From the NCBI GenBank assembly GCA_018993265.1, contig JAGKSW010000144.1, positions 1-62,204 of the forward strand: a stretch of 62,204 nt of DNA, in the 5' to 3' direction. Positions 32,847 to 61,491 of the stretch are shown here, piece after piece. Position numbers and translations under genes: made by a program. The stretch's first letter is position 1, and the number at the start of each line of letters is the position of its first letter. The notes beneath the pieces were generated by a model. It had not been told where the DNA came from. It ran no database searches and saw only the letters and a program-made list of their open reading frames with translations. Source of the stretch: Nostoc sp. TH1S01. GTDB lineage: Bacteria > Cyanobacteriota > Cyanobacteriia > Cyanobacteriales > Nostocaceae.

Positions 32847-32930
32847 TTAAATAGGCAAGACAATGGCAAATTCAGTTCCTTGAGTGGAGGTAGAATGAAC
32901 CTGAATTGCGCCGCTATGTTTTTCTACTAC
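32847..32930 (-). pseudogene. Histidine kinase C-terminal remnant
   Basis: Reading the minus strand from about 32930 gives VVEKHSGAIQVHSTSTQGTE then FAIVLPI-stop. That is the end of an HATPase domain (G2-box region and final strand) of a sensor histidine kinase. No kinase frame continues upstream; unrelated sequence and a mobile element (33020) follow. It is a deletion remnant. Confidence 0.72.
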
Positions 32931-33019
32931 AAAGGGAGTCGAGGTGCTGCTCCCTTGCGATTTTAACGATCATTATGAAAAGTATTAAATTTTCGCTTCA
33001 TCTCCCCTCAGAAGATAAG

Positions 33020-33224
33020 CTACGGTGTACACAAAAATCTTCGTGTGGTGCATCTGTCCCGCCTCGGAATAAATTCCGAGTCTCATAGCGCAAGTCCTCT
33101 CAAGAGGACTCAACAAAAATTTTATTCCAGTCTACTTCAGTAGACTTTGGCTATGCGCCTGGAACTTTAGTTCTAGGCGGGAATGGCTTCAAAATGAAAA
33201 TCTCGACTTGTGTGTACACGGTAG
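33020..33224. mobile_element. Structured 205-bp MITE-like element, copy 1 (family A)
   Basis: Ends CTACGGTGTACACA and TGTGTACACGGTAG are inverted. Both sides carry the 11-bp direct repeat CAGAAGATAAG (33009-33019, 33225-33235), a perfect target duplication. Inside are hairpins CTCGGAAT/ATTCCGAG, GTCCTC/GAGGAC, AGTCTAC/GTAGACT and CCTGGAAC/GTTCTAGG. Longer pairings are CCCGCCT/AGGCGGG and CATAGC/GCTATG. The copy at 61252 keeps the stems with compensatory changes. No ORF of its own. Confidence 0.88.
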
Positions 33225-33333
33225 CAGAAGATAAGGGGGTCTAAATATAGAAGCATAAAAAACTTTACACCCCATACCTTTACCCCCTTATACTCAATCT
33301 CTTAAACTAACCTGTATAAGTTAGAACAAGAAA

Positions 33334-33699
33334 CTATTTGTTCTTATTAGTGTTCTTGTGACTTTGGCGGCCAGCTTCGGCGTGTTGCTCGCTGCTACCA
33401 CCTTGGGTACCTTTTGATTCAGTATCGTCTGAATTTTCGATATCGTCAGCCTCGTCATCTCTTTGTTTTTTGCGACCACCGCCGTGCGACTGCTTTCCAC
33501 CTTCACGGCCGATTTCGGCCATGTGTTCTCTATCTTTGCTGACGGTTTCGCCGCCCTTACGTCCAGCTTCACGAGCTTCTTCAGAAGTGAATTCGTGAGC
33601 GGTACCTTTTTCATGAGCAGCGTGGCCACCCTTGCTGGCGATTTCGCGTTGCTTATCTTCATCCATAGAAGCAAAGCCACGTTTACTTGTATCTGACAT
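33334..33699 (-). CDS. KGG-repeat stress-induced protein
   Basis: This 121-residue, very hydrophilic protein has KGG-type repeats: RGFASMDEDKQREIASKGGHAAHEKG, HEFTSEEAREAGRKGGETVSKD and AEIGREGGKQSHGGG. A Lys/Asp/Asn-rich tail follows. It resembles YciG and conidiation/general stress proteins, thought to protect against desiccation, heat or oxidation. GGAG precedes the ATG (CAGGAGCAATATTATG). It lies between mobile repeats on both sides. Probably cytosolic and intrinsically disordered. Confidence 0.87.
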   Translation of the reverse strand: MSDTSKRGFASMDEDKQREIASKGGHAAHEKGTAHEFTSEEAREAGRKGGETVSKDREHMAEIGREGGKQSHGGGRKKQRDDEADDIENSDDTESKGTQGGSSEQHAEAGRQSHKNTNKNK

Positions 33700-60544: not shown

Positions 60545-61246
60545 TTATTTCCTCCCAAATAACCTATCTAAAAATGATATTTTTACAGCAAAATTAATAA
60601 TACCTTTACCAGTGCTACTATCAACAATTTCCGCGTTATTTAAAGCCACAATATAAGGCTCACCTTGAATCGAGGCAATAATTGGGCCGCCAGATGAACC
60701 ACCCGCAGTATCGCAGTCATGTAGTAAAATATTGGACTGTTCATCCACAATACTGCAACCGGATTGAAAACCTGCTGTCCATCCTTGTCCGGCTGTTAAA
60801 CCCCAAAACTTTTCCGTTTCTGCTTGGGGATAATCACCAGAATATCCCACAAAATAGAATTTTTTCTCATTGCGAATTAAAGTTGCAGAAGCTAGAGACT
60901 TCCAACCCAGATAGCCATATTTGCGCCCCAGAGGTCTATCAATTTTGATAACCGCCCAATCATTAGCCGCAGCATTTTTATCTTGAAAGTGTGTACCCGC
61001 TAGATACTGCACTGCATAAGCTCTATCTTGATATCGACCATCAACTACATTGGGTAGAAAAGCAACTCTATCTGCTACATTGCCAGTTTTGGGGTCAACT
61101 ACACAATGAGCATTGGTTAATACAATATCTTCATCAATCAAAGTTCCTGTACAGGTGTAAGTTTGCGAATTTGATTCACCGACAATTCGACCAACAGTAG
61201 ACCAAGGATAATTATTGCTTAACATCGGCAGGCGATCGTCGCCCAT
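60545..61246 (-). CDS. Trypsin-like serine protease, 5' side separated from its ribosome site by an insertion
   Basis: This protein has 233 residues from the ATG at 61246 (MGDDRLPMLSNNYPW). The catalytic triad is His in VLTNAHC, Asp in NDWAVIKID and Ser in DTAGGSSGGPI. No signal peptide, so probably cytosolic. The open frame now runs to 61354 inside the inserted element, which would add about 36 unrelated residues from a TTG. Before the insertion, AAGGAGG sat just 3 bases before the ATG and 22 bases lay between the CHAT stop codon and this start. It was therefore the second gene of a TPR-CHAT/protease operon. Confidence 0.85.
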   Translation of the reverse strand: MGDDRLPMLSNNYPWSTVGRIVGESNSQTYTCTGTLIDEDIVLTNAHCVVDPKTGNVADRVAFLPNVVDGRYQDRAYAVQYLAGTHFQDKNAAANDWAVIKIDRPLGRKYGYLGWKSLASATLIRNEKKFYFVGYSGDYPQAETEKFWGLTAGQGWTAGFQSGCSIVDEQSNILLHDCDTAGGSSGGPIIASIQGEPYIVALNNAEIVDSSTGKGIINFAVKISFLDRLFGRK

Positions 61247-61251
61247 CAGCC

Positions 61252-61467
61252 CTACGGTGTACACACAAAAAAATGAAATGTTCGTTGAGTGCATCTGTCC
61301 CGCCTCGGAATGAATTCCGAGTCTCATAGCGCAAGTCATCTGAAGATGACTCAACCAAAAATCTATTCCAGTCCACGCTTTGTGGACTTTGGCTATGAGC
61401 CTGGAACTTTAGTTCTAGGCGGGATTTGGTTGAACACAAAAATTTTTGACTTGTGTGTACACGGTAG
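61252..61467. mobile_element. Structured 216-bp MITE-like element, copy 2 (family A)
   Basis: Same ends as the copy at 33020 (CTACGGTGTACACA/TGTGTACACGGTAG). Flanking duplication CCCATCAGCC/CCCATCGGCC, 10 bp with one mismatch. The stems are kept with changed pairs: GTCATC/GATGAC and AGTCCAC/GTGGACT replace GTCCTC/GAGGAC and AGTCTAC/GTAGACT. CTCATAGC pairs fully with GCTATGAG. A further pairing, CAACCAAA/TTTGGTTG, is possible here. Confidence 0.88.
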
Positions 61468-61491
61468 CCCATCGGCCTCCTTCAACCCTCC

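Follow-up and report, generated by a model that had tools for sequence, protein, structure and literature searches.

A four-hairpin, REPIN-like core in IS4-type miniature elements of Nostoc and its probable link to a Y1 transposase

What is the folded interior shared by two short repeats in a Nostoc contig, and which enzymes act on it? The window, meaning the whole 62,204-nucleotide stretch of Nostoc sp. TH1S01 that was analysed, is one whole contig (C103) of a 7.65 Mb genome in 247 contigs. A preliminary description made from its letters had placed two copies of a mobile element in it, at 33020-33224 (205 bp) and 61252-61467 (216 bp), and both were found there as described.

Copy 1 is bounded by the inverted ends CTACGGTGTACACA (33020-33033, forward strand) and CTACCGTGTACACA (33211-33224, reverse strand) and is flanked by the target duplication CAGAAGATAAG, identical at 11 of 11 positions between 33009-33019 and 33225-33235. 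Copy 2 (61252-61467, forward strand) carries the same ends, CTACGGTGTACACA and CTACCGTGTACACA, and lies between CCCATCAGCC (61242-61251) and CCCATCGGCC (61468-61477), which agree at 9 of 10 positions, so that the inverted ends and 10-11 bp duplications reported earlier were recovered at both places. The ends of both copies have the form CTAC(G/C)GTGTACACACAA, and neither copy, at 205 and 216 bp, holds a transposase gene. An open frame labelled by eye as a trypsin-like protease (window 60545-61354) reaches with its 5' end into copy 2, which places this insertion just upstream of, or at, the start of the protease gene. No clean empty site for copy 1 was found among the 11 genomes of its genus, its own included.

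An autonomous IS4 partner was identified in a congener (L196; G164:C138:119765-121251), where the same ends stand 1487 bp apart. Its 19-bp ends are identical to the terminal inverted repeats (TIRs) of the window element, it encodes a 446-aa IS4-family transposase (NF033590, E=2e-113; Pfam DDE_Tnp_1 barely above the cut-off) and it is flanked by the 11-bp direct repeat CACGGACAAAG. In the window's own genome no pair of ends at IS distance was detected with one mismatch allowed, barring those that arise where small copies adjoin each other or are interrupted. Target duplications were surveyed in 39 elements with these ends (34 from the own genome and five from other genomes), leaving out 14 of the 48 own elements that were truncated or unclear. 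Of the 39, 20 had duplications 9-12 bp long in which no more than one position differed, and in 13 of those 20 the length was 11 bp. By their ends, duplications, absent coding capacity and partner, the window copies are non-autonomous IS4-type elements (MITEs). The TIRs and duplications, which had been called unusual for a HEARO-type guide RNA, belong to an IS4-type IS.

Palindromic target sites with arms of at least 8 were found at 12 of the 39 elements; among 1500 control 50-mers taken from nearby DNA, 28 were palindromic in this way. A different filler, built from CCCCCTAACCCCCCTT-type palindromes, lies between the same IS4-type ends in seven elements (L055, L050 and L063 in the own genome; L198, L201, L202 and L203 in other genomes); two of the seven gave marginal matches only (E 0.004 and 0.007) to R1, the covariance model of the core. 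This kind of palindrome also serves as an insertion target. No match to the core was found within the autonomous element L196. Because the same ends occur with a different filler and L196 is without the core, shell and filler are separable. One reading named in advance as fatal, that the fold is a remnant of a known IS terminus, is therefore true of the outer ~20 bp and false of the core, which is absent from the autonomous IS4 element.

The core is 126 nt long (TCCCG ... CGGGA) and consists of four hairpins, arranged as two units of two in roughly inverted order, and nearly equals its own reverse complement. It spans 33057-33182 in copy 1 (forward strand; R1 match 33053-33186, 150 bits) and 61298-61424 in copy 2 (forward strand; R1 match 61294-61428, 148.1 bits). 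In copy 1 an outer stem pairs 33057-33061 with 33178-33182. Inside it follow hairpin 1 (33063-33080, CTCGGAA TAAA TTCCGAG), the 5' side of a middle stem (CTCATAGC, 33082-33089), hairpin 2 (33093-33110, AGTCCTC TCAA GAGGACT), hairpin 3 (33129-33146, AGTCTAC TTCA GTAGACT), the 3' partner of the middle stem (GCTATGCG, consensus GCTATNAG, 33150-33157) and hairpin 4 (33158-33177, CCTGGAAC TTTA GTTCTAGG), with the four hairpins on the forward strand. Hairpins 2 and 3 hold the two paired differences between the copies that had first drawn attention to the fold, and both are present: AGTCCTC/GAGGACT to AGTCATC/GATGACT, and AGTCTAC/GTAGACT to AGTCCAC/GTGGACT.

Without guidance, RNAalifold folded 60 cores into all four hairpins plus some of the middle stem, and 15 of 33 pairs showed double changes. 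In the full 41-pair structure, 18 pairs had changes on both sides, compared with 9.3 after shuffling; counted as cells, the figures were 130 and 35.2. Because relatedness inflates counts of double changes, an R-scape-like tree null was built in our own implementation, using the G statistic with APC and substitutions redistributed along a FastTree tree. In a MAFFT alignment of the 60 cores, which was not fitted to the covariance model, the best eight of 8385 column pairs all belonged to the proposed structure. Columns 47-57 and 92-102, which are the two pairs of the preliminary description, exceeded all 100 simulated alignments. In an alignment of 134 distinct cores fitted to the model, including cores from seven genomes of other orders, the best 15 of 8515 column pairs were all proposed pairs; for 12 pairs none of 100 simulations attained the observed value, and a two-set test put 16 of 41 at E<0.05. 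All 16 sit in the four local hairpins (at E2<0.05, six of seven pairs in hairpin 1, two of seven in hairpin 2, four of seven in hairpin 3 and four of the seven modelled pairs in hairpin 4).

All four hairpins thus covary beyond the tree-based null and not by chance, and the fold beyond TIR recognition proposed earlier, which a lack of excess covariation was to overturn, stands. Almost no variation is seen in the enclosing stems TCCCG/CGGGA and CTCATAGC/GCTATNAG, and neither holds a significant pair; one middle-stem pair (model 32-103) was formed in just 53% of the 134 sequences. These long-range stems are too invariant for covariation to support or refute them, and so the pairings CCCGCCT/AGGCGGG and CATAGC/GCTATG, which had been proposed to enclose the small hairpins, agree with the data without being proven.

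Paired changes in such an element may also arise from how it is copied. Tree-inferred changes in the hairpins amounted, in one resolution of the tree, to about 185 switches from one Watson-Crick pair to another, far outnumbering the single mismatches (24 G.T, 18 A.C and 38 other). In 16 arm/loop combinations identical arms carry the loop in flipped form, which suggests extruded or single-stranded DNA, and templated correction of arms may add to the covariation. An ordinary MITE whose hairpins are passive filler, with paired changes made by hairpin-templated correction in replication and no selection on the fold, would account for both observations, as well as for stems outside the hairpins that do not covary and for same-ended elements with another palindromic filler. 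Templating alone cannot explain why bases such as AGTC/GACT and CT(A/C)ATAGC are kept across orders while the arms vary, nor why cores flank one kind of transposase gene, and we consider this explanation unlikely.

Whether the folded molecule is RNA or DNA was approached through strand symmetry. Across all counted pairs plus one extra position, mean inferred changes were 64 to G.T against 47 to A.C. Among the 28 hairpin pairs, standing cells on the canonical strand held G.T 30 times and A.C 19 times; among the 13 long-range pairs the counts were 76 and 37 (106 and 56 for the 41 pairs together). At model position 109-122, in hairpin 4 but outside the modelled structure, G.T occurred in 41 of 134 sequences. 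A separate count over the 25 inner hairpin pairs gave 14 of each. An excess of G.T over A.C on one strand is consistent with RNA, and also with single-stranded DNA if chiefly one strand acts. In many distant copies both strands scored nearly alike with the model, and the orientation of the core relative to genes showed no preference in tandem contexts (34 same, 39 opposite).

A structured RNA, regulatory or guide, encoded by the core and carried by mobile elements would suit the strong conserved hairpins and this mild excess; we hold it to be quite unlikely, given the near-equal strands, the absent gene orientation, the barely higher number of G.T than A.C changes within hairpins (24 and 18) and the lack of an Rfam match at threshold. 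At gathering scores the whole window yielded one tRNA and nothing else, and at E up to 5 the interval 32900-33350 gave chance-level SmY and CRISPR-DR matches only. Neither HEARO (RF02033) nor any other Rfam family reached threshold in the element or at 18 loci with diverse cores. The HEARO/IscB-type guide RNA lineage, offered earlier as a candidate, gained no supporting point: HEARO gave no match in the window at gathering, in 32900-33350 at E up to 5 or at the 18 loci at E up to 0.5, and the idea is hardly credible. Of the earlier choice between folded RNA and folded single-stranded DNA, the fold itself is upheld; near-palindromy and the absence of gene orientation lean towards single-stranded DNA, while the mild one-strand G.T excess would also suit RNA.

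The core is far more widespread than two copies. A blastn search of the own genome with copy 1 gave at least 54 matches, with 40 of 87 candidates scored; these comprise 42 forward copies and 12 matches to the quasi-palindromic core on the reverse strand. Model R1 found at least 80 distinct core places there (149 rows), a lower bound since 150 of 2928 candidates were scored; two of the 80 belong to a single interrupted element as its halves. The CTACSGTGTACACA end, allowing one mismatch in 14, was present on at least one side at 48 of these places, on both sides at 27 and on neither at 32. In a separate count, matching pieces numbered 36-46 per genome. Within the family, whole-element blastn gave matches at E<=0.001 in 179 of 217 genomes, with three candidates scored in most genomes. 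Model matches were obtained in 266 of the 388 genomes of an order-wide draw and in 152 of the 388 of a class-wide one; of these 152, 113 lie outside the order (the two draws overlap).

A pattern scan of named genomes gave at least 80 loci, nearly all cyanobacterial among the matches listed; also among these, MAGs labelled Poribacteria, Litorilinea and Anaerolineae (L251, L280, L327) matched R1 at 67-76 bits, which could reflect transfer or mis-binning. A search with one core for phage relatives gave no match, and plasmid relatives came to three records, all Nostoc. Tandem arrays of cores were seen at L297, L407 and G108:C6:2400120-2400687, with a spacing of ~149-186 bp. At an intergenic site upstream of mobA (L142, L215-L234), compared within a genus of 16 genomes of which 15 were aligned, the core was present in three, one of them partly deleted; the other genomes showed remnants (one), a short site without core (six) or other insertions (five), with imprecise boundaries.

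By crude ORF calling, 111 of 133 loci were intergenic, 11 lay inside ORFs and 11 at an edge. With the edge loci and those within ORFs set aside, the genes flanking the core were convergent in 22 cases, divergent in 16 and tandem in 73, against 7, 13 and 36 in control gaps; this comparison showed no clear bias, and a terminator role for the core was rejected.

The ends around the core were then compared at 124 distinct core places outside the own genome, for which five end motifs were tried. Ends on both sides were found for TIR1 at 18 places, TIR2 (GTGTCAACTTAA) at 18, TIR3 (GGGCTATTTCATTC) at three, TIR4 at two and a fifth short motif at one, and 43 of the 124 places had none of the five. With the flanks reversed as a control, TIR2 and TIR3 gave no both-sided match and TIR1 gave five, owing to self-matching of its ACACAC run; for the fifth motif, matches on one side dropped from 18 to three. 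The distance from core to end is nearly constant within each end type. The core therefore sits between unrelated inverted ends, or bare, and is a module common to several MITE shells.

An enzyme for the core itself was sought among the Y1 transposases. Ten genes were found in the own genome with Pfam Y1_Tnp. One of them (C111:43132-43551) has two cores upstream, ending 58 and 223 bp away, and a MITE-borne core 499 bp downstream. A second (C41; L208:1489-1920), with the motifs DHIH and YIRNQAVHH, has a weak core match (26.9 bits) overlapping its 3' end and is perhaps a second enzyme-repeat pair in this genome. The other eight, searched up to E 1 over 1.5 kb to either side, had no core, so that nearby cores, three and one weak, belong only to the two genes most like the C111 type.

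A search with the C111 protein matched 220 of 291 genomes of the order at E<=1e-3 (60 at 1e-40 or better, 31 at 1e-20 to 1e-40 and 129 weaker). In the 30 best-matching genomes, sampled at one locus each and including the own genome, core matches at E<=0.01 were present within 1.5 kb of the gene at all 30 loci, the best per locus at E<=5e-6. From the density in the own genome (80 per 7.65 Mb), a rough control, about 4% of 3.4-kb stretches, or ~1 of 30, would hold a core by chance. Cores stood within 300 bp upstream at 26 loci, downstream at 22 and on both sides at 18; 23 of the 30 loci had a core of at least 50 bits, and the remaining seven had weak cores alone (33-47 bits). Cores were present in 59 of the 60 genomes with a strong transposase match, 30 of the 31 with an intermediate one and 65 of the 129 with a weak one, and also in 10 of 20 listed genomes out of the 71 without a transposase match; the genomes are related, so species in these counts are not independent.

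The signature Y---Q--HH was present in all 30 proteins, and the HuH motif read DHIH, DHVH or DHLH in 20 and NHIH in 10. In NCBIfam the C111-type protein is an IS200/IS605 transposase (NF033573, 83.3 bits, cut-off 55), and the REP-associated tyrosine transposase model NF047646 scored 21.8 bits, below its cut-off of 80. The nearest solved structures were PDB 2vhg, which we take to be ISDra2, and 2a6m (both at E about 5e-12). By its signature motifs the protein fits TnpA-Y1 subclass 1.2. On a Bernardetia plasmid, the gene of a related Y1 transposase (L424:1340-2095; Bacteroidota, YILNQPEHH) lies between short palindromes of the AGCTGCGTAGCTGC type, which do not resemble the cyanobacterial core.

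Cores beside such a gene might instead be the hairpin or solo ends of a decayed IS200-like IS, with the dispersed cores as its deletion derivatives and not a REPIN system tolerated by the host. The IS200/IS605-like protein and the 18 loci with cores on both sides within 300 bp speak for this. Up to seven cores around one transposase gene, and dozens of cores per genome beside few genes of this type, speak against it, and we judge it very unlikely.

The best explanation, and one that we think probable, is that the core is a REPIN-like element of an orphan subclass 1.2 Y1 transposase that was captured by IS4-type MITEs. The outer shell would be moved in trans by an IS4 DDE transposase, presumably also active in this genome. 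The inner 126-nt core, found mostly between genes in many cyanobacteria, would be recognised as folded single-stranded DNA by the Y1 (HUH) enzyme of subclass 1.2 whose gene the cores flank, and this enzyme would bind, cleave and mobilise it; IS4-type ends would at some point have captured it. The cores beside the own Y1 gene differ from those in the window MITEs, and the action of the enzyme on the window copies is for that reason conjecture.

More tentatively, and with the balance close to even, the core may be the missing cognate substrate of TnpA-Y1 subclass 1.2, and so part of a second REPIN-transposase system apart from GTAG/RAYT, spread through cyanobacteria with a four-hairpin single-strand-DNA fold and captured several times by MITEs with unrelated ends; the resulting elements could then move by two different chemistries. 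For transposases that a 2018 survey (PMC6006769) left without REP repeats or IS-type ends, the core offers a precise, folded and sequence-defined candidate substrate with very many natural variants. It also provides a case of one folded module common to several unrelated MITE shells, and a reminder that a mobile repeat may covary without acting as RNA.

Among known systems, Nezha (Zhou 2008) and the MITEs of Anabaena sp. 90 (PMC3542288) are cyanobacterial MITEs described as small, repeated and with predicted secondary structure, as is the core element, and no IS with matching ends is reported for those of Anabaena. Some of them may contain this core, the likeness being one of description and not of sequence. 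The GTAG- or CGTC-tagged REPs, compared likewise by description and not by letters, are palindromic repeats, some of them in filamentous cyanobacteria, that carry a GTAG or CGTC tag according to the consulted part of PMC3733652. The core was not named in the literature listings searched, and the REPINs of Nostoc punctiforme could be the same core.

IS200/IS605 elements (ISDra2, ISHp608) share the HUH/Y1 enzyme family with the C111-type protein, but the repeats here, unlike theirs, are multi-hairpin and dispersed. In REPIN/RAYT systems (Bertels and Rainey 2011, PMC3116915), a Y1 transposase gene is flanked by inverted doublets of hairpins that occur in high copy number; the paper also covers Nostoc punctiforme and describes REPs next to the RAYT of that species. 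The core likewise forms an inverted hairpin doublet of which both strands match the model, is high in copy number and mostly extragenic, and flanks a Y1 gene in 30 of 30 loci. REPIN/RAYT has two REPs where the core has four hairpins, the transposase here falls outside the REP-associated class, and no GTAG-type tetranucleotide was seen at the hairpin foot in the cores inspected by eye. With a REPIN-like arrangement but another transposase class and no such foot, the system lies outside the known REPIN/RAYT kind.

The 2018 survey of TnpA-Y1 proteins (PMC6006769) presents subclass 1.2, in the part consulted, as a new group of about 148 aa with DH[IV]H, WQ and Y---Q--HH, low in copy number, occurring in cyanobacteria and Bacteroidetes, with 'no' entered for REP sequences and without typical IS200 ends; in the present data, all 30 loci have repeats beside the gene. 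The window copies, finally, resemble IS4-family MITEs in their ends, duplications, absent coding capacity and autonomous partner, and differ from them in an interior module that is common to elements with unrelated ends.
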